Source of the DNA: an uncultured Eubacteriales bacterium
Lineage (GTDB): Bacteria; Bacillota; Clostridia; Oscillospirales; Acutalibacteraceae
Reading direction: 5' to 3'
Assembly: GCA_900318495.1 (NCBI GenBank)
Contig: ONLA01000026.1
Coordinates: forward strand, 1-44,045
Length of the DNA: 44,045 nucleotides
Of the stretch, positions 18,362-28,705 are shown one piece after another. Position 1 is the first letter of the stretch; each line of letters begins with the position of its first letter. The notes below the pieces were generated by a model. It worked only from the letters and a program-made list of their open reading frames with translations, searched no databases and had not been told where the DNA came from. The position numbers and the translations under genes were made by a program.

Positions 18362-19540
18362 TTACTTTAGCAGCTTTTTTATTCTTTCAACCGCTTCAAC
18401 GGTGCTGTCCCGGTCGCCGAAGGAGGTAAGGCGGAAGTAGCCCTTTCCGTTTTCGCCGAAGCCTTCGCCCGGTGTGCCGACAACGTTTGCGTTTTCGAGA
18501 AGATAGTCGAAAAATTCCCAGCTTCCCATACCGTTCGGACATTCAAGCCAAATGTAAGGCGAATTTTTGCCGCCGGTGTAATAGATTCCGAGTTCGTCGA
18601 GAGCCGAGGAGATGATGCGCGCGTTTTCCTGATAATAAGAGATGTTTTCGCGGATTTGGCGCTGACCTTCCGCGCTGAACACCGCAGCCGCCGCGCACTG
18701 GACAGGCCACGAAACGCCGTTGAATTTAGTCGCCTGACGGCGGTACCAGGTTTGGTAGATGTTGTGCCCGTCGCGCTCAAGCTCGTGCGGAATTACAGTG
18801 TAGCCGCAGCGTGTGCCGGTGAAGCCGGCGGTTTTTGACAGCGAACACATTTCAATCGCGCACTGCCTTGCGCCGTCAATCGCATAGATAGAACGCGGCA
18901 AATCCTCGGTGATGAACGCTTCGTAAGCGCTGTCGTAGAGGATAACGGCGTCGTTTTCGAGCGCGTAGTCAACCCACGCTTTAAGCTGCCGCGCGGTGTA
19001 TGCCGAGCCTGTGGGATTGTTCGGAGAACAAAGGTAGATTATGTCGGCTTTTACGCTGCTATCAGGCATTGCGGCAAATCCGTTGCTTCGGTTTGACGCG
19101 GCGTATACGATTTTTCTGCCTGCCATAATGTTTGAGTCCACATACACGGGATATACCGGGTCGGTGACAAGCACGGTGTTGTCCTGCGAGAAGATGTCGC
19201 CGATGTTGCCGCAGTCGGACTTGGCGCCGTCGGAAACAAAGATTTCGTCAGCCGCGACGCTTACGCCGAAGCTTTTGTAATAGTCCGAAATTGCCTGACG
19301 CAAAAACTCGTAGCCCTCGTAATCGGGATAACCCCTGAAGCTTTCCTTGTGAGCCAAATCGTCCGCGCCGCGCTTCATTGCTTCGGTTACAACCGGCGCT
19401 AAAGGCAGCGTGACGTCGCCGATTCCCAGACGGATAATTTTTTTGTCCGGATTTGCGGCGGCATAATTCGCTGTCTTTTTTGCTACGTCGGCAAAAAGAT
19501 AGTTTGGAACAAGGTTGTCAAAATTTTTGTTGATTTTCAA
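18362..19540 (-). CDS. dapL: LL-diaminopimelate aminotransferase
   Basis: PLP enzyme converting tetrahydrodipicolinate directly to LL-diaminopimelate with glutamate, bypassing DapD/C/E. The 392 residues have class I/II aminotransferase features: LGIGDVTLPLAP near the N terminus, FVSDGAKSDCGNI, CSPNNPTG, the PLP Tyr region DSAYEAF, and the PLP-lysine motif SLSKTAGFTGTRCGY. The N-terminal region is typical of DapL rather than AspC. The start is TTG 19540: no in-frame ATG occurs before an upstream stop, and AAGGA lies 10 nt before it. It lies 100 bp downstream of the carB::dapF gene; DapF acts on its product. Confidence 0.95.
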   Translation of the reverse strand: MKINKNFDNLVPNYLFADVAKKTANYAAANPDKKIIRLGIGDVTLPLAPVVTEAMKRGADDLAHKESFRGYPDYEGYEFLRQAISDYYKSFGVSVAADEIFVSDGAKSDCGNIGDIFSQDNTVLVTDPVYPVYVDSNIMAGRKIVYAASNRSNGFAAMPDSSVKADIIYLCSPNNPTGSAYTARQLKAWVDYALENDAVILYDSAYEAFITEDLPRSIYAIDGARQCAIEMCSLSKTAGFTGTRCGYTVIPHELERDGHNIYQTWYRRQATKFNGVSWPVQCAAAAVFSAEGQRQIRENISYYQENARIISSALDELGIYYTGGKNSPYIWLECPNGMGSWEFFDYLLENANVVGTPGEGFGENGKGYFRLTSFGDRDSTVEAVERIKKLLK

Positions 19541-19640: not shown

Positions 19641-22600
19641 TTAAATTTCTACTTCGCCCTCGAAAACTGTTTCCGCGTTGCCCGTCATATATACGGTGTC
19701 GTCGGTGTAATTGATAATAAGGTCGCCGCCCTTGAGCTTAACCTTGATGTCCTCGCCCTTTTTGCAGAAGCCGTTTTCGCAAGCCGCAACCGCAACCGCG
19801 CACGCGCCTGTGCCGCAAGCCCAGGTTTCGCCTGAACCGCGCTCCCATACGCGCATCTTGATTGTGTGTTCGTCAAGCACGGTGACAAACTCGGTGTTGA
19901 CGCGCTCGGGGAACAGCTCGTTTGTTTCGAATTCGGTTCCGATTGATTCGATGTCCATATAATCAACGCCGTCCGTGAACACGACGCAGTGCGGATTACC
20001 CATTGATACGCAGGTAATGTTGTATTCCCTGCCGCCGATTGTAACCGCGCGGTTAACTACCTTGTCGCCGTCGAGCGCAACGGGGATTTCGGCAGGGTTA
20101 AGGATAGCCTTGCCCATATCTACACGAAGCCTTGTAACAACGCCGTCGCTGGTGAACGCCTTCAGGGTTTTTATTCCGCTGAGGGTTTCGATTGTGAACT
20201 CGTCCTTTTCCCTGATGTCGAGCATATGGTGGTCATAGAGGAACTTGCCAACACAGCGGATTCCGTTGCCGCACATTTTGCCCTCGGAGCCGTCGCGGTT
20301 ATACATCTTCATTTGAGCGTCGGCAACCTTTGACGGACAAACAAGGATTACACCGTCGCCGCCGATTCCGAAGTGCTGTTCGGAAAGACGAACCGCGAGC
20401 GCCTCGGGGTTGTTGATTTCCTGGTCGAAGGTGCTGAAATAGATGTAGTCGTTGCCTATTCCCTGCATTTTGGTGAATTTGAGCTTTTTCTTTGAGTCGC
20501 GCATATTATTGATGTCAACAAGCTCGGTGCTTAACTGCGAGTAGCGTGAACGCAGGCAGTCCGCCAAAGCGTTGGCTGTGTCAAGCGAGGTAAGGCAGGG
20601 GATGTTTCTTTCAACGGTTTTTCTGCGGATTTTAACAGAGTCACGCGAGGGGATTCTTCCCTTTGCAGAGGTTGAGATTACGTACTGGATTTTTCCGGAT
20701 TCGATAAGCGTGAGTGTGTTGTTGGATTCGGATTCGTGAATCTTCTTAACGCTTACCGCGTCGATGCCGTACTTGCCGAGCACCGCGGCTGTGCCCTCGG
20801 TTGCGTAAATCTTAAAGCCGAGGTCGTAATACTTCTTGGCGATTTCGCCGATTTCGCCCTTGTCGGAATTGCGGACGGTGATAAATACGCCGCCCTTTTT
20901 CTTCATTTTATAGCCTGCGGCGATAAGTCCCTTGTACAGAGCTTCCTCAAGGTTTCCCGCAATGCCGAGAACCTCGCCGGTTGACTTCATTTCGGGGCCC
21001 AAGTGGTTGTCAACGTTAATGAGTTTTTCAAAGCTGAATACGGGAACCTTTACGGCAATGTAGGGGCTCTTTCTGTAAAGTCCTGTGCCGTAGCCCATAT
21101 CGCTGAGCTTTTCGCCGAGCATTGCGCGTGTCGCGAGGTCAACCATGGGAACTCCCGTAACCTTGCTGATGTAGGGGATTGTACGCGATGAACGCGGATT
21201 TACCTCGATAACGTAAAGCTCGTTGTTATAGATAAGATACTGAATATTTACAAGACCCTTTGTTCTGAGCTCGATTGCGAGATTGCGTGAGCTTTCAACA
21301 ATAATTTGAGTCATTTCGTCGCTGATGTTCCACGCCGGATAAACGGCGATTGAGTCGCCTGAGTGAACGCCCGCGCGCTCGATGTGCTCCATAATGCCGG
21401 GAATGAGGATGTCATCGCCGTCGCAGATTGCGTCAACCTCGATTTCGGTACCCTGGAGGTATTTGTCGATAAGGATCGGGTTTTCGATATCCTGCGCAAG
21501 AATGATCGCCATATATTCCTTAACATCGGCTTCATTGAACGCGATAATCATATTTTGACCGCCGAGAACATATGACGGACGCAGAAGCACGGGATAGCCG
21601 ATTGTTTCGGCAACGTTTAAGGCTTCCTCGGTTGTCATAACCGTTACGCCGCGGGGACGCTTGATGTGGTATTTTTCGAGAAGCTCGTCAAAGCGTTCTC
21701 TGTCCTCAGCCATATCAATCGCGTCGTAGGAGGTTCCGAGGATGTTAACTCCGCTTTCGGAGAGGAACTTTGTGAGCTTGATAGCGGTCTGACCGCCGAA
21801 CGCCACAACAACGCCGTAGGGGTTCTCGGTTTTGATAATGCCCATTACGTCCTCGGCTGTAAGCGGCTCAAAGTAGAGTCTGTCGGAGGTGTCGAAGTCT
21901 GTTGATACGGTTTCGGGGTTATTATTTACGATAACTACGTCGTAGCCTGCCTTTTTAAGCGCCCAAACGCAGTGAACCGAAGCGTAGTCGAACTCGATAC
22001 CCTGACCGATACGGATAGGACCTGAACCGAATACGATGATTGTCTTTTTGTCGCTGTTTTTATTCCTGATAAACTGAGCCGCCTCGTTTTCTTTGTCGTA
22101 GGTCGAGTAGAAGTAAGGAGTTTGAGCCTCGAACTCAGCGGCGCAGGTGTCAACCATTTTGTAAACCGGAAGAAGCGGATTTTCAATTTTTTGTCCCGAA
22201 AACTCCTCGATTGTCTTGTCGAGGAAGCCTGTCTTTTTAGCTTTTTCGTAAAGCTCGTCAGTAAGGTTTCCGGCTTTAAGCTCATTGCTTACGGCAATGA
22301 TATTTTTAAGCTTTTCAAGGAACCATTCGTCAATCATAGTGATTTCGTGGATTTGCTCAACGCTTACTCCGCGCTTTAGCGCCTCGTAAACACAGAAAAT
22401 TCTTCTGTCGTCGCAGGTGCCGAGCTGGTGAACCACCGAAGCGTTTGACAGCTCCTCAAAATGCTTGTCGTCGAGCGTGTTGTGTGAAATTTCGGCGCCG
22501 CGTACCGCCTTCATAATTGCCTGCTCAAAGGTGGGCGCGATAGCCATAACCTCACCGGTGGCTTTCATCTGTGTGCCGAGGTCGCGCTTTGCGTATACGA

Positions 22601-23693
22601 ATTTATCGAAAGGCCATTTGGGAAACTTTACAACAACGTAGTCGATTGCAGGCTCGAAGCAGGCGTAGGTTGTGCCTGTAACGGCGTTTTTGATTTCGCC
22701 GAGGGTGTAGCCGATAGCGATTTTTGCCGCAACCTTGGCGATCGGATAACCGGTTGCCTTTGACGCGAGCGCCGAAGAACGCGAAACACGGGGGTTAACC
22801 TCGATTACCGCGTATTCAAAGCTTTCGGGATCGAGCGCGAACTGACAGTTGCAGCCGCCTTCTACCTTTAACGCGTTAACAATGCTCAGCGCGGCGGTGC
22901 GGAGCATTTGGTACTCCTTGTCCGCAAGCGTAACGGCAGGCGCGATAACGATTGAATCGCCGGTGTGAACGCCGACGGGATCCATATTCTCCATGGAACA
23001 GATTGTGATTACGTTTCCGGAGCTGTCGCGCATAACCTCGAACTCGATTTCCTTCCAGCCGGAAATGCACTTTTCGACCAAAACCTGTGTAATGGGCGAA
23101 AGCTCAAGACCGTTGGAGGTGATTTCGCGGAGCTCCTCCTCGTCGTTTACAATGCCGCCGCCTGTGCCGCCCAGTGTAAAGGCAGGACGGATGATTACGG
23201 GATAGCCGATTTCTTCGGCGAACTGAACGGCGGTTTCAACGTCGTTTACGACCATTGAAGGGATAACCGGCTGGTTGATTTCCAGCATTGTATCCTTGAA
23301 CATTTGGCGATCCTCCGCCTTGTCAATGGTTTCGGGATTAGCGCCTAAAAGCTGAACGCCGTATTTGTCAAGGAAGCCTTCCTTTGCAAGCTGCATTGAA
23401 AGCGTAAGACCTGTTTGTCCGCCGAGGGTTGACAGCAGACTGTCGGGACGCTCCTTTTTAATAATTCGCTTAACGGTTTCAAGCGTAAGAGGCTCGATGT
23501 ATATTTTATCCGCCATTGCGTTGTCTGTCATAATTGTAGCGGGGTTTGAGTTTACAAGGATAACCTCAAGTCCCTCTTCCTTTAAGGCGCGGCACGCCTG
23601 AGTGCCGGCGTAGTCAAACTCGGCAGCCTGTCCGATTACTATGGGGCCTGAGCCGATTACCATTACTCTTTTAATATCCTTTTTCAGTGGCAT
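19641..23693 (-). CDS. carB-dapF: Fused carbamoyl-phosphate synthase large subunit - diaminopimelate epimerase
   Basis: One uninterrupted 1350-residue frame. Residues 1 to about 1063 are a complete CarB: two ATP-grasp synthetase halves (starting VMVIGSGPIVIGQAAEFDYA and IIVFGSGPIRIGQGIEFDYA) and the C-terminal MGS-like allosteric domain (GGVFITVRNSD ... ERNIPCLTSLDTANAL). From about Met1064 (codon at 20502-20504) a complete DapF follows (MQGIGNDYIYF), with both catalytic cysteines in MCGNGIRC and WACGTGACA. There is no stop, frameshift or Shine-Dalgarno at the junction, and the linker is only about 15 residues. AAGGA lies 8 nt before ATG 23693. carA is upstream and dapL downstream. Carbamoyl phosphate feeds arginine/pyrimidines; DapF makes meso-diaminopimelate. 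Whether the product stays fused or is cleaved is unknown. Confidence 0.93.
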   Translation of the reverse strand: MPLKKDIKRVMVIGSGPIVIGQAAEFDYAGTQACRALKEEGLEVILVNSNPATIMTDNAMADKIYIEPLTLETVKRIIKKERPDSLLSTLGGQTGLTLSMQLAKEGFLDKYGVQLLGANPETIDKAEDRQMFKDTMLEINQPVIPSMVVNDVETAVQFAEEIGYPVIIRPAFTLGGTGGGIVNDEEELREITSNGLELSPITQVLVEKCISGWKEIEFEVMRDSSGNVITICSMENMDPVGVHTGDSIVIAPAVTLADKEYQMLRTAALSIVNALKVEGGCNCQFALDPESFEYAVIEVNPRVSRSSALASKATGYPIAKVAAKIAIGYTLGEIKNAVTGTTYACFEPAIDYVVVKFPKWPFDKFVYAKRDLGTQMKATGEVMAIAPTFEQAIMKAVRGAEISHNTLDDKHFEELSNASVVHQLGTCDDRRIFCVYEALKRGVSVEQIHEITMIDEWFLEKLKNIIAVSNELKAGNLTDELYEKAKKTGFLDKTIEEFSGQKIENPLLPVYKMVDTCAAEFEAQTPYFYSTYDKENEAAQFIRNKNSDKKTIIVFGSGPIRIGQGIEFDYASVHCVWALKKAGYDVVIVNNNPETVSTDFDTSDRLYFEPLTAEDVMGIIKTENPYGVVVAFGGQTAIKLTKFLSESGVNILGTSYDAIDMAEDRERFDELLEKYHIKRPRGVTVMTTEEALNVAETIGYPVLLRPSYVLGGQNMIIAFNEADVKEYMAIILAQDIENPILIDKYLQGTEIEVDAICDGDDILIPGIMEHIERAGVHSGDSIAVYPAWNISDEMTQIIVESSRNLAIELRTKGLVNIQYLIYNNELYVIEVNPRSSRTIPYISKVTGVPMVDLATRAMLGEKLSDMGYGTGLYRKSPYIAVKVPVFSFEKLINVDNHLGPEMKSTGEVLGIAGNLEEALYKGLIAAGYKMKKKGGVFITVRNSDKGEIGEIAKKYYDLGFKIYATEGTAAVLGKYGIDAVSVKKIHESESNNTLTLIESGKIQYVISTSAKGRIPSRDSVKIRRKTVERNIPCLTSLDTANALADCLRSRYSQLSTELVDINNMRDSKKKLKFTKMQGIGNDYIYFSTFDQEINNPEALAVRLSEQHFGIGGDGVILVCPSKVADAQMKMYNRDGSEGKMCGNGIRCVGKFLYDHHMLDIREKDEFTIETLSGIKTLKAFTSDGVVTRLRVDMGKAILNPAEIPVALDGDKVVNRAVTIGGREYNITCVSMGNPHCVVFTDGVDYMDIESIGTEFETNELFPERVNTEFVTVLDEHTIKMRVWERGSGETWACGTGACAVAVAACENGFCKKGEDIKVKLKGGDLIINYTDDTVYMTGNAETVFEGEVEI

Positions 23694-23798: not shown

Positions 23799-24881
23799 TT
23801 ACGCCTTGTTATCCTTCATAAGCTTAATGAAACGGTCGAACAGGAACGCTGTGTCCTGGGGGCCGCCGCAGGCTTCGGGGTGGAACTGAACCGAAAACGC
23901 CGGCATATTGCTGTAATCCACGCCTTCGCAGGTGCCGTCGTTGCCGTTTTCAAAGCTGGTTTCAGCGGTTTCGGGCAGAGATTGGGAAACAACCGCGTAG
24001 CCGTGGTTCTGGGAAGTGATATAAATTTTGCCTGTGGCAAGCTCCTTAACCGGCTGGTTTGCTCCTCTGTGACCGTAGTGCAGCTTGGTTGTTTTCGCGC
24101 CCTGGGAAAGCGCCATAAGCTGGTGGCCGAGACAGATGCCGAACATTGGTATTTTATTTTCGGCAAGCGCTGTGAGCTGTTTGATGACCTCGGTGTTTTT
24201 GCAGGGGTCTCCCGGACCGTTTGAAAGCATTACGCCGTCGGGGTTCATCGCCATAATTTCCCCGGCGGTGGTGTGAGCCGGAACAACGGTGACCTCGCAG
24301 CCGCGGCTGAGAAGCTCGCGCTCGATGTTGTGCTTTGCGCCGAAGTCCATAAGAACAACCTTAAGCTCAGGATTTTCCGGCTTGAAGTCCTCGCAGTGCT
24401 GAACGGTGGTTTTTTCAACCGCTTCGGTGATTACGTACTTTTTAATCTCGTCCAAATCAGCCTGTGTTACCTCGGGGGTGTACTGAATTTTGCAGTTCAT
24501 AACACCGTATTCACGCACAATTCGGGTGAGAGCGCGGGTGTCGATTCCGCAAACTCCGGGAATTCCGGATTCTTTTAAAAAGGTGTCAAGATCGCCCTCG
24601 CTGCGAAAGTTAGAGGGTACTTGGCACCATTCTCTTACAATATAGCCTTTGAGGGCAGGCGAGTTGCTCTCGAAATCGGAGGGAATAACCCCGTAGTTAC
24701 CGATTAAAGGAAATGTTTGAATAACCACCTGACCGAAATAGCTGGGGTCGGTGAGTGTTTCAAGATAGCCTGTCATCGCTGTGGTAAAAACAAGCTCTCC
24801 CGTGGTTTCTTTTTCGGCACCGAATGCCTTGCCCCCGAAAACAGTTCCGTTTTCAAGAACTAAGTATGCATCACGACTCAT
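23799..24881 (-). CDS. carA: Carbamoyl-phosphate synthase small subunit
   Basis: Glutamine amidotransferase subunit that supplies ammonia to CarB. At 360 residues it has a normal length. The N-terminal CPSase small domain (LVLENGTVFGGKAFGA, TTAMTGYLETLTDPSY) is followed by a class I amidotransferase domain with nucleophile motif FGICLGHQLMALS and the His-Glu pair in VQFHPEA. AAAGG lies about 8 nt before ATG. It lies 105 bp upstream of carB::dapF and 49 bp downstream of the ANTAR gene. Two small hairpins in the 23694-23798 gap (GGAGAC/GTCTCC and TCCGC/GCGGA) carry no T-run. Confidence 0.97.
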   Translation of the reverse strand: MSRDAYLVLENGTVFGGKAFGAEKETTGELVFTTAMTGYLETLTDPSYFGQVVIQTFPLIGNYGVIPSDFESNSPALKGYIVREWCQVPSNFRSEGDLDTFLKESGIPGVCGIDTRALTRIVREYGVMNCKIQYTPEVTQADLDEIKKYVITEAVEKTTVQHCEDFKPENPELKVVLMDFGAKHNIERELLSRGCEVTVVPAHTTAGEIMAMNPDGVMLSNGPGDPCKNTEVIKQLTALAENKIPMFGICLGHQLMALSQGAKTTKLHYGHRGANQPVKELATGKIYITSQNHGYAVVSQSLPETAETSFENGNDGTCEGVDYSNMPAFSVQFHPEACGGPQDTAFLFDRFIKLMKDNKA

Positions 24882-24930: not shown

Positions 24931-25500
24931 CTAATTTTCATAGGTTTGAATAACCTGCTTTGCGACGTTGAGCCTGCTTGTGCGCAAGTCCATCGCCTGC
25001 TTTTCAAGGTAGCGGTGCGCCTGTTCCTCGCTCATACCGAGGCAGGTTACAAGCAAAAGCTTTGCGCGGTCAATGATTTTAATGTCCTCGACCATACCCT
25101 TCAGCCGCTTGTTTTCCTGCTCGACGCGGAGCATTCTGGTGCGGAAGCAGTCGGTAAACTGCAAATAGTGGTGGAACAAATGCTTGTTTATGGGCTTGGC
25201 AATTACCAAAACGCCGTATTGGGTAAGCATATCGTTGACCTCGTCGGCGCTTTTTTGCGGAACGATAATCACGACGGACGACCGCGTTGTTTCGGCAAAG
25301 TGACGCGAAAGCTCGATGCCGTTTTCGTCGATAAGCGGAGCGTTTATACAGATTAAGTCAAACTCGCTGTTTTCCGCCGCTTCCTTTGCGCTGTAGGCGG
25401 CGTAAAACACATTGATTTTGTCATAGCCCTCTGTTTTTAACAGCTTAGCAAGCGGCGACGCGCTTTGTTCGGAGCGTGAAACAAGTAACGCTTTTTTCAA
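24931..25500 (-). CDS. ANTAR-domain regulator with degenerate receiver
   Basis: Predicted 189-residue RNA-binding antiterminator of the AmiR/NasR/EutV type. Residues 1-115 have a receiver-like fold (KKALLVSRSEQSASPLAKLL ... VLVIAKPIN) followed by a short coiled linker. Residues about 130-185 are the ANTAR domain (DRAKLLLVTCLGMSEEQAHR and LRTSRLNVAKQVI). The phosphoacceptor Asp is replaced by Asn53 (DLICINAPL), and the N-terminal acidic pair is absent, so control by phosphorylation is unlikely. The start is TTG 25500 with GGAGGTG 5-6 nt upstream. It lies directly upstream of carA and about 1.1 kb from glnA. ANTAR proteins in clostridia often control nitrogen genes; the target is proposed under Findings. 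Confidence 0.9.
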   Translation of the reverse strand: MKKALLVSRSEQSASPLAKLLKTEGYDKINVFYAAYSAKEAAENSEFDLICINAPLIDENGIELSRHFAETTRSSVVIIVPQKSADEVNDMLTQYGVLVIAKPINKHLFHHYLQFTDCFRTRMLRVEQENKRLKGMVEDIKIIDRAKLLLVTCLGMSEEQAHRYLEKQAMDLRTSRLNVAKQVIQTYEN

Positions 25501-26611: not shown

Positions 26612-28705
26612 TTAAACGCCGAAAAGCAAATCGTAATATGACGGATAAGGCCAGAAATCGGACGCTGTTTCGGTTTCCATTGAGTCGCCTACAGCCCGGA
26701 GTTCCTGCATTTTCGCGAAAACTACCTCGCGGAAATATTTGGCGTACTCAAGCTCGTCAAATTTGTGTTCGCTCGCGCCCATAACCGCTTCCTCAAGCTC
26801 GGTTGTTTTGTTTACGAAGCAAACAAGCTTGTTGGAAAGGCTTTTAACAAGGTTTTCCTCAACCGATGTGGGAATGTCTGCGGAAAGCGCCTTTTTTGCC
26901 AAAGCCGCGTCGGTCATTTGGCGTACAAAAGCGGTGACCGCCGGAGTGATTTTCTTTCTTGCCATATCAATCATGGTAAGCGCTTCTATATTAATTTGTT
27001 TGCAGTAGGTTTCAAGCTCAATTTCGTATCTTGCCCGGTATTCAGCCTGGGTGACGATTTTGTTTTTGACAAACAACTCGACGTTCTTTCTGTCGAGGAA
27101 ATGGCTGAAGGCTTCGGGCATTGACTTCAAGTTGAGCAAGCCTCTTCTCTTTGCCTCCTGAACCCACTCGTCGGTGTAGTTGTCGCCGTTGAATATAATT
27201 CTTTTGTGCTCGGAAAGGACGTTTTTAACGAGGGATCTTACAGCCTTTTCGATGTTGTTCTCCTCGTCCTTAAGCTCAACGTAGAACTGGCTTAGCTCCT
27301 CGGCAACCATGGTATTGAGCATATAGTTCGGACAGCCGATGTTGAGCGCCGAACCGAGCGCGCGGAACTCGAACTTGTTGCCGGTGAAGGCGAAGGGTGA
27401 GGTTCTGTTTCTGTCGGAGGTGTCCTTTTTGAAATCGGCGAGAACGTCAACGCCTGTCTGCATTCTTTCCTTGCCGTGGCTTACATATTCCTCGCCGTTG
27501 ATGATTGAGTCAACCATTTCGCCCAAATCATCGCCGAGGTACATCGAGATAATAGCAGGCGGAGCTTCGTGAGCGCCCAGACGGTGGTCGTTGCCGGCGG
27601 AGGCTACTGTAGCTCTGAGCAAATCCTGATATTCGTCAACAGCCTTTACGACCGCCGCGAGGAAAATTTGGAACACAAGGTTGTTTTCGGGATGCTTGCC
27701 GGGGCTTAAAAGGTTTTCGCCGGTGTTGGTGGAAAGCGACCAGTTGTTGTGCTTGCCCGAGCCGTTTACTCCGGCAAAGGGCTTTTCGTGAAGCAGGCAG
27801 ACCATTCCGTGCTTTTCGGCAGTCTTTTTCATAATTTCCATTGTGAGCTCGTTGTGGTCGTTCGCGATATTTGAAGTGGTGAAAATAGGCGCGAGCTCGT
27901 GCTGTGAGGGCGCAACCTCGTTGTGCTTGGTTTTTGCGAGGATGCCGAGCTTCCACAGCTCCTCGTCAAGATCCTTCATATATGCCGAAACTCTGGTTTT
28001 GATAGCGCCGAAGTAATGGTCGTCAAGCTCCTGACCCTTGGGAGCCTTTGCGCCGAACAGGGTTCTGCCGGTGAGCTTTAAATCCTCGCGCTGTTCATAG
28101 AGATCGCGGTCAATCAGGAAGTACTCCTGCTCGGGACCTACGGTTGTTATTACTCTGGTTACGTCGGTTTTTCCGAGAAGATGCAGAATTCTTACCGCCT
28201 CGCTGCTGATTTTTTCCATCGAGCGCAGCAGGGGTGTTTTTTTATCGAGAACCTCGCCTGTGTAGGAACAGAACGCTGTGGGAATATACAGTGAGCCGTC
28301 GCGTACAAACGCCGGAGATGTGGGGTCCCAGGTTGTGTAGCCGCGCGCTTCAAAGGTGGCGCGGATTCCGCCGCTGGGGAATGACGAAGCGTCGGGTTCG
28401 CCCTTGATGAGCTCCTTGCCCGAAAATTCCATAATTACGCCGTCGCCGTTGGGCTGGATAAAGCTGTCGTGCTTTTCGGCGGTAACGCCTGTCATTGGCT
28501 GAAACCAGTGGGTGTAGTGGGTACAGCCCATTTCTATTGCCCAGTCCTTCATTGCGGTGGCAACAACATTAGCCACGCTGAGGTCAAGCGGTTCGCCGTC
28601 CTGAATGGTTTTTTTCAAGGCTTTATAGGTTGACTTAGGAAGTCTTTCCTGCATTTTTTTGTCGTTAAATACATTCATTCCGAACATTTCGGGAACTTTA
28701 CTCAT
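26612..28705 (-). CDS. glnN: Glutamine synthetase, type III
   Basis: ATP-dependent synthesis of glutamine from glutamate and ammonia. The 697-residue length and the N-terminal region ([20 protein letters not shown], then [11 protein letters not shown]) identify the large type III (GSIII/GlnN) form found in Bacteroides and Ruminococcus, not the roughly 440-residue GlnA type I. Other signatures are [46 protein letters not shown] and [25 protein letters not shown] site lies before ATG. It has its own consensus promoter and a structured leader of about 75 nt. The ANTAR regulator gene nearby suggests control of the leader. Confidence 0.96.

Follow-up and report, generated by a model that had tools for sequence, protein, structure and literature searches.

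Carbamoyl-phosphate synthase (CPS) is a classic example of an allosteric enzyme, and its effectors act through the last domain. In Escherichia coli CarB, the large subunit (PDB 1bxr/1jdb), the chain stops after this MGS domain. Here we describe a gene in 44,045 nucleotides of an uncultured Eubacteriales bacterium of the Acutalibacteraceae (GenBank assembly GCA_900318495.1, contig ONLA01000026.1; this whole stretch is called the window below). Its product shares with E. coli CarB the domain order, carA upstream and MGS as the last domain of the CPS part, but continues directly into diaminopimelate (DAP) epimerase, DapF. The whole fold of known DapF enzymes (PDB 9mro, 1gqz and 2otn) is common to the window protein, which has both catalytic cysteines and the pocket, whereas the fused family differs from known DapF in being joined to CarB and in that Cys73 is gone in 136 of 236 unique relatives. 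On balance, we favor the reading that the window protein is a bifunctional CPS subunit and epimerase, and that across the family the DapF domain has a second, non-epimerase role in CPS, likely DAP-responsive regulation.

For a regulatory DapF there is a precedent in E. coli. Passages of PMC4227774 describe how DapF contacts RppH directly and stimulates it, and how a C73A/C217A double mutant still does so, and the complex (PDB 6d13) thus represents a DapF that regulates an unrelated enzyme independently of epimerase activity. However, RppH and DapF are separate proteins and RppH is an RNA enzyme, whereas here DapF is covalently joined to CPS and its regulatory effect is predicted. Human CPS1 is switched by N-acetylglutamate, an amino-acid derivative, bound in its C-terminal domain, according to parts of PMC4655335; in that enzyme (PDB 5dou) the ligand binds the C-terminal domain itself with no extra domain, whereas the fused CarB has an added DapF. 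By analogy, both cases may serve as precedents only, and not as demonstrations for CarB-DapF. Another bifunctional DapF, of different architecture, is the DapF/glutamate racemase of NCBIfam NF038284, against which the window protein scores 112.9 bits (cut-off 350). A literature search confined to open-licence PubMed Central papers found no paper on a CarB-DapF fusion or on DapF pseudoenzymes of such a kind. Both fusion enzymes and pseudoenzymes that act as regulators have been described before; we know of no description of the CarB-DapF pairing or of its repeated loss of one cysteine.

The fused reading frame and its junction

The gene is a single uninterrupted open reading frame on the minus strand (19641-23693), which starts with ATG and encodes 1350 residues. 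The following parts are recognized in it.

20544..23693, minus strand: CarB part, CPS large subunit, residues 1-1050 (NF003671, 1515 bits; TIGR01369, 1474 bits)
20589..20852, minus strand: MGS (allosteric) domain of CarB, residues 948-1035 (PF02142; alignment to PDB 1bxr)
20505..20543, minus strand: junction, residues 1051-1063 (YSQLSTELVDINN), a conserved CarB tail without a flexible linker
19644..20504, minus strand: DapF part, DAP epimerase, residues 1064-1350 (TIGR00652; Foldseek matches to solved DapF structures)
20271..20273, minus strand: codon of Cys1141, equivalent to catalytic Cys73 (alignment; M-C-GNG)
19815..19817, minus strand: codon of Cys1293, equivalent to catalytic Cys217 (alignment; A-C-GTG)

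The NF003671 match spans residues 1-1050 and profile positions 1-1049 of 1058, and both this family and TIGR01369 score above their cut-offs. Pfam domains in the CarB part are CPSase_L_D1 and CPSase_L_D2 (two stretches each), CPSase_L_D3 and MGS; both ATP-grasp halves, the oligomerization and MGS domains, a full-length above-cut-off match and carA alongside are thus all present, as in a genuine CarB. In the window MGS, a residue tally on the 1bxr alignment found the nucleotide-site residues of the E. coli enzyme mostly kept or conservatively replaced. The TIGR00652 match covers residues 1072-1348 and profile positions 2-268 of 270 (285.2 bits against a cut-off of 114.65), and this full-length match together with the two catalytic cysteines identifies the C-terminal part as a DapF, of which the alignment shows the pocket to be retained as well. 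The original prediction of a complete CarB running without a stop into a complete DapF with both catalytic cysteines, here Cys1141 and Cys1293, is thereby borne out. The window genome assembly consists of 81 contigs and is 86% complete, and in it the DAP_epimerase Pfam matches and the CPSase_L_D3 match are confined to the fused frame. A stop codon hidden by a sequencing error, named beforehand as a finding that would overturn the prediction, is excluded because the fused frame recurs in many genomes. Chance and assembly error are ruled out by the same recurrence, and the reality of the fusion is strongly supported.

Of 235 unique fused loci, 231 share exactly the same spacing between the end of CarB and the start of DapF (an additional locus lacks an anchor), and the junction motif TELVDIN-(one residue)-M/L-R is largely conserved. 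In the first junction survey of 63 loci, 61 had a spacing of 13 residues and L053 one of 20. The value of 233 for L065 is an anchoring artefact from an in-frame repeat insert, as the true junction of L065 is like the others. The insert itself (L065:3982-4785) consists of direct repeats of 42 bases arranged in an in-frame array, which places about 200 repetitive residues between the CarB and DapF halves.

Two separate products might still arise from an internal start at Met1064 or from proteolysis at the junction. ATG does stand at the Met1064 position in 179 of the 235 unique loci, but the codon is other than ATG, GTG or TTG in 52, the junction is predicted to be ordered, and a Shine-Dalgarno-like 4-mer precedes the position in none of the 235, against 11.5% of random in-gene windows. 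The earlier claim that no Shine-Dalgarno sequence precedes the DapF part holds in the window too, where the Met1064 codon starts at 20504 and its 16 upstream bases contain no such 4-mer. An internal start as a conserved feature is therefore rejected, and we regard two products as highly improbable.

For residues 544-1350 of the window protein, AlphaFold2 gave a mean predicted local distance difference test score (pLDDT) of 87.9 and a predicted template modeling score (pTM) of 0.86, with pLDDT about 90 across the junction. The three-domain piece of a relative with Ala73 (L055) gave a mean pLDDT of 86.8 and a pTM of 0.84, and the DapF part of this model matches the DAP epimerase of the ligand-bound entry 9mro (1.5 Å over 281 columns). 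The pTM values suggest that the CarB and DapF halves are probably packed against each other across a rigid junction and are not loosely tethered.

Spread and origin of the fusion

In a sample of 60 genomes of the genus, the fusion is present in 35, the window genome included; 19 have DapF as a separate protein without the fusion, in one case in pieces, and six have neither. Across the order, 139 of 396 sampled genomes gave junction-spanning matches, in 20 families. A sample of 341 genomes from the class, at E 1e-60 or better, gave 50, of which 45 belong to 20 further families outside the order. The fused architecture, whose conservation among relatives had been proposed as a check, is thus kept far beyond one family. 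Relatives with separate genes, which had been named as evidence against the fusion, do exist, namely the 19 genomes of the genus, but the unfused CarBs read in three such genomes of the genus (G017, G026 and G044) share 51-52% identity with that of the window and are a different CarB, not a split form of the window gene. Among the named records with the fusion, Ruminococcus sp. FC2018, Neglectibacter sp. X58 and Treponema sp. C6A8 lack the label of a metagenome-assembled genome (MAG) and are taken to be isolates; MAGs with the fusion carry the names Saccharofermentans, Spirochaetaceae and Synergistaceae. An initial count of 245 fused domains included nine duplicate pairs with identical DapF parts, mostly from contigs sampled twice, and the recount gives 236 unique domains. 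Typing omitted 31 loci as duplicates, of which two (L080 and L097, in genomes G090 and G033) are not duplicates and are missing from the counts; L028, in a wrong frame, was left out of the alignment of catalytic cysteines.

All trees were built with FastTree only. On the DapF tree (245 fused and 49 free domains, 294 rows), fused against free requires one change. The CarB tree, with 224 rows and its root among divergent unfused CarBs, unites the fused CarBs in a single clade (support 70), which stands beside the unfused CarB L324. Within this clade of 205 tips lie two unfused genes, L331 and L336, besides L183, a fused gene truncated where its contig ends; the two nested unfused CarBs probably represent secondary loss of the DapF domain. 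The trees favor a single event, and the fusion most likely arose once. Fission of an ancestral long gene is disfavored, as the fused genes make up a single derived clade on the rooted CarB tree. Most likely this old fusion was then inherited widely across the class and also passed to spirochaetes by some transfer. Five spirochaete fused loci (Treponema/Spirochaetaceae: L152, L155, L158, L160 and L164) all lack Cys73; a group of four of them and L164 are placed among Clostridia sequences on the CarB tree, and since they are nested there, acquisition by transfer is likely. Two of the three earliest branches of the CarB tree hold Cys73, on a weakly supported backbone, and the two-Cys state would most simply be ancestral. 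At least 15 changes in the presence of Cys73 are required on the same tree.

Loss of Cys73 and retention of the pocket

Cys73, His159, Glu208 and Cys217 of DapF are named as catalytic in passages of PMC3581254. Position 73 in the 236 unique fused domains is Cys in 100, Ala in 88, Gly in 26, Ser in 15, Phe in five, Thr in one and Pro in one; 95 have both cysteines, 128 Cys217 only, four Cys73 only and seven neither, and two are truncated. Cys73 is thus lost in 136 of 236 fused domains against none of 77 free DapF, where it is found in 49 of 49 and in 28 of 28 low-scoring proteins, with Cys217 in every untruncated one. The 49 are mostly the best-scoring TIGR00652 matches; the 28 low-scoring proteins, one of them truncated before Cys217, were added on purpose, and two masked-frame rows, one repeat row and one off-target row were dropped from that set. 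Since Cys73 is lost in so many fused domains, the presence of two activities in one chain is no general reason for the fusion.

The 136 domains without Cys73 keep N64 in 135, E208 in 132, R209 and N190 each in 131, N157 in 129 and Cys217 in 128. The list of DapF pocket residues draws in part on general background; by it, the 12 pocket residues other than Cys73 have a mean identity of 0.954 in Cys73-less domains thinned to 100, against a column mean of 0.670, and none of 20,000 random residue sets reached this value. Of 129 thinned sequences, alignment A2 comprised 127, omitting L259 and L268, and A3 comprised 83 hand-picked from A2. Median ratios of nonsynonymous to synonymous substitution (dN/dS) for the DapF part were 0.062 with Cys73 present (30 usable pairs), 0.096 with it absent (19) and 0.117 for free DapF (4), and those for the CarB part were 0.041 and 0.059, in a comparison where synonymous divergence (Ks) approaches or exceeds 1 for many pairs. 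The dN/dS of the Cys73-less domain is low, and the domain is therefore under purifying selection. With an essential residue lost and fold and selection retained, the Cys73-less relatives, as distinct from the window protein, fit a pseudoenzyme and are predicted to be inactive as epimerases.

Alternatively, Cys217 might act alone on an amino acid in a new one-base chemistry such as elimination or isomerization; the proline racemase superfamily does include single-Cys dehydratases, as described in parts of PMC4113996, and Cys217 stands in 128 of the 136 domains. This is quite improbable in our judgment, as the varied replacements at position 73 (given above) fit a loss better than a gain.

The nucleotide site of MGS changes in part of the family as well. 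Ser948, Thr977 and Lys992 of E. coli CarB are essential for control by uridine monophosphate, according to passages of PMC5417507. The MGS residues were mapped through the 1bxr alignment on 127 representatives, 39 with Cys73 and 88 without it. Further residues that we take to belong to the site are Lys954, Thr974, Lys993, Asn1015 and Thr1017. Ser/Asn-Thr at 1015-1016 is kept in 37 of the 39 representatives with Cys73, the other two differing there only by Cys at 1015, and in 32 of the 88 without it. The remaining 56 representatives, all Cys73-less, have a changed site, with Tyr1015 in 52, Gly1017 in 53, Asp1020 in 42 and His1030 in 50. They belong to one CarB-tree clade (93 tips, support 100), in which Cys73 is absent from all fused members and one typed member, L265, is unchanged at the MGS site; their position in one clade points to one or few events. 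The change would be consistent with control having passed from the MGS nucleotide site to the pocket of DapF. More tentatively, it is possible that in a large Clostridia group the fused DapF is a DAP-sensing pseudoenzyme that took over the allosteric control of CPS while the MGS nucleotide site was lost, with the window form still catalytic.

Predicted role and genomic setting

The window chain together with CarA would form carbamoyl phosphate, and its C-terminal domain would convert LL-DAP, the product of the adjacent dapL gene, to meso-DAP. The DapF domain is set end to end behind the allosteric MGS through a fixed and probably rigid junction; it would function within the synthetase, most likely as a DAP-responsive regulatory domain. 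Such a second, non-epimerase role would explain why the Cys73-less relatives, in which DAP binding is predicted from the retained residues, keep both the domain and its pocket.

A plain bifunctional fusion without a regulatory link, joined by chance, working where needed and decaying beside another DapF or a DAP dehydrogenase (Ddh), seems rather unlikely, although several observations speak for it. The window protein and others, 95 of the 236 unique fused domains, have both cysteines, and other routes to meso-DAP are common where a cysteine is lost. The genome table covers 136 of the 139 fused genomes of the order (G033, G090 and G295 are missing), with DapF counts and Ddh presence entered by hand; a second DapF was scored from a further match with E of 0.001 or better, under partial inspection, a weak below-cut-off match in G452 being counted as none, and the incompleteness of MAGs can imitate the absence of a second DapF or Ddh. 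Among 105 genomes with a fused DapF short of one or both cysteines, 71 have a second DapF match and 28 more have Ddh, together 99 with a backup. Among 29 with a two-Cys fused DapF, 18 have one of these and 11 have neither, and in these 11 the fused domain would be the sole meso-DAP route found, which points to epimerase function there; two further genomes have truncated domains. Ruminococcus sp. FC2018 has a two-Cys fused domain, with other DapF and Ddh both undetected. The fused domain lacks Cys73 in four treponeme genomes, Treponema sp. C6A8 and those of L158, L160 and L164, where a second DapF and Ddh were undetected, which speaks for a second role of the domain; the L155 genome has Ddh. 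In treponemes, ornithine replaces DAP in the wall. Against a plain fusion stands the absence of visible decay, as the dN/dS median of 0.096 in Cys73-less domains (19 pairs) is near the 0.117 of free DapF (4 pairs); moreover, the pocket residues except N11 are still among the better conserved columns, and the fused CarB clade, the contig-end case aside, contains just two unfused genes.

Several points weigh against the favored reading. The window protein has both cysteines and a near-canonical MGS site, so that regulation would be predicted for it from its relatives. Its genome holds Ddh on another contig (G000:C23:9426-10397), a second route to meso-DAP, and the fused epimerase is therefore not its sole one. 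By analogy with the Ser-Cys members of the proline racemase superfamily, reported as active in parts of PMC4113996, the 15 forms with Ser73 may have kept their activity, and the retained Cys217 could reflect remaining chemistry. N11 is kept in only 101 of the 136 Cys73-less domains and replaced in 35, mostly by Asp. Six of the 105 genomes with a Cys-less fused domain (G064, G086, G305, G319, G374 and G423) show no second DapF or Ddh. The link between cysteine loss and backup (99 of 105 against 18 of 29; Fisher p 4e-5 with relatedness ignored) is not significant with relatedness considered (seven independent pairs, median p 1). Finally, a small clade (L050, L259 and L260, from G094, G199 and G447) has lost N157, N190, E208, R209 and Cys217 and kept the fused domain. 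This last clade, which dispenses with most pocket residues, speaks for the domain being a structural or oligomerization module: E. coli DapF is a dimer, as stated in parts of PMC4227774, so that a fused DapF could hold CPS molecules together, and the fixed junction (231/235), predicted to be ordered in both AlphaFold2 models, would suit such a module. A pure scaffold, however, would need none of N64, E208, R209 and Cys217, which are kept in nearly all of the 136 Cys73-less domains (counts above), and we consider this explanation unlikely.

The neighbors of the fused gene in the window are as follows.

23799..24881, minus strand: carA, CPS small (glutaminase) subunit (NF009475, above cut-off)
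18362..19540, minus strand: dapL, LL-diaminopimelate aminotransferase of the DAPAT_plant type (TIGR03542, 509 bits, above cut-off)

Of 100 testable unique fused loci, 83 have a carA homologue immediately upstream. The dapL product is the DapF substrate, and the original prediction took dapL as a sign that dapF was probably already in this operon; locally the argument stands, as dapL adjoins the window gene, but it does not hold in general, since a dapL-like gene is directly downstream in only nine of 106 testable unique loci (nine of 50 with Cys73, none of 56 without). On these counts, dapL adjacency as a general cause of the fusion is rejected. Directly upstream of carA is a gene for an ANTAR-domain regulator (24931-25500, minus strand), and further upstream one for a type III glutamine synthetase (26612-28705, minus strand), which suggests a nitrogen-regulated cluster. 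Elsewhere, a free dapF stands directly behind fused carB-dapF in tandem (L059, G264:C11:310908-312777; G444:C4:24153-25960; L141:1-3820), and the free copies of L059 and L141 have both cysteines.

For annotation, a DapF match on a fused CarB alone is no proof of meso-DAP synthesis, and genomes scored as DapF-positive may depend on another DapF copy or on Ddh. If DAP-responsive regulation is correct, the supply of a precursor for pyrimidines and arginine would be tied to the cell-wall and lysine branch. The family would then also display an evolutionary route from a bifunctional enzyme to a metabolite sensor, with both forms alive today, and the window protein, as a bifunctional catalytic form, could be a possible starting point of the sensor.

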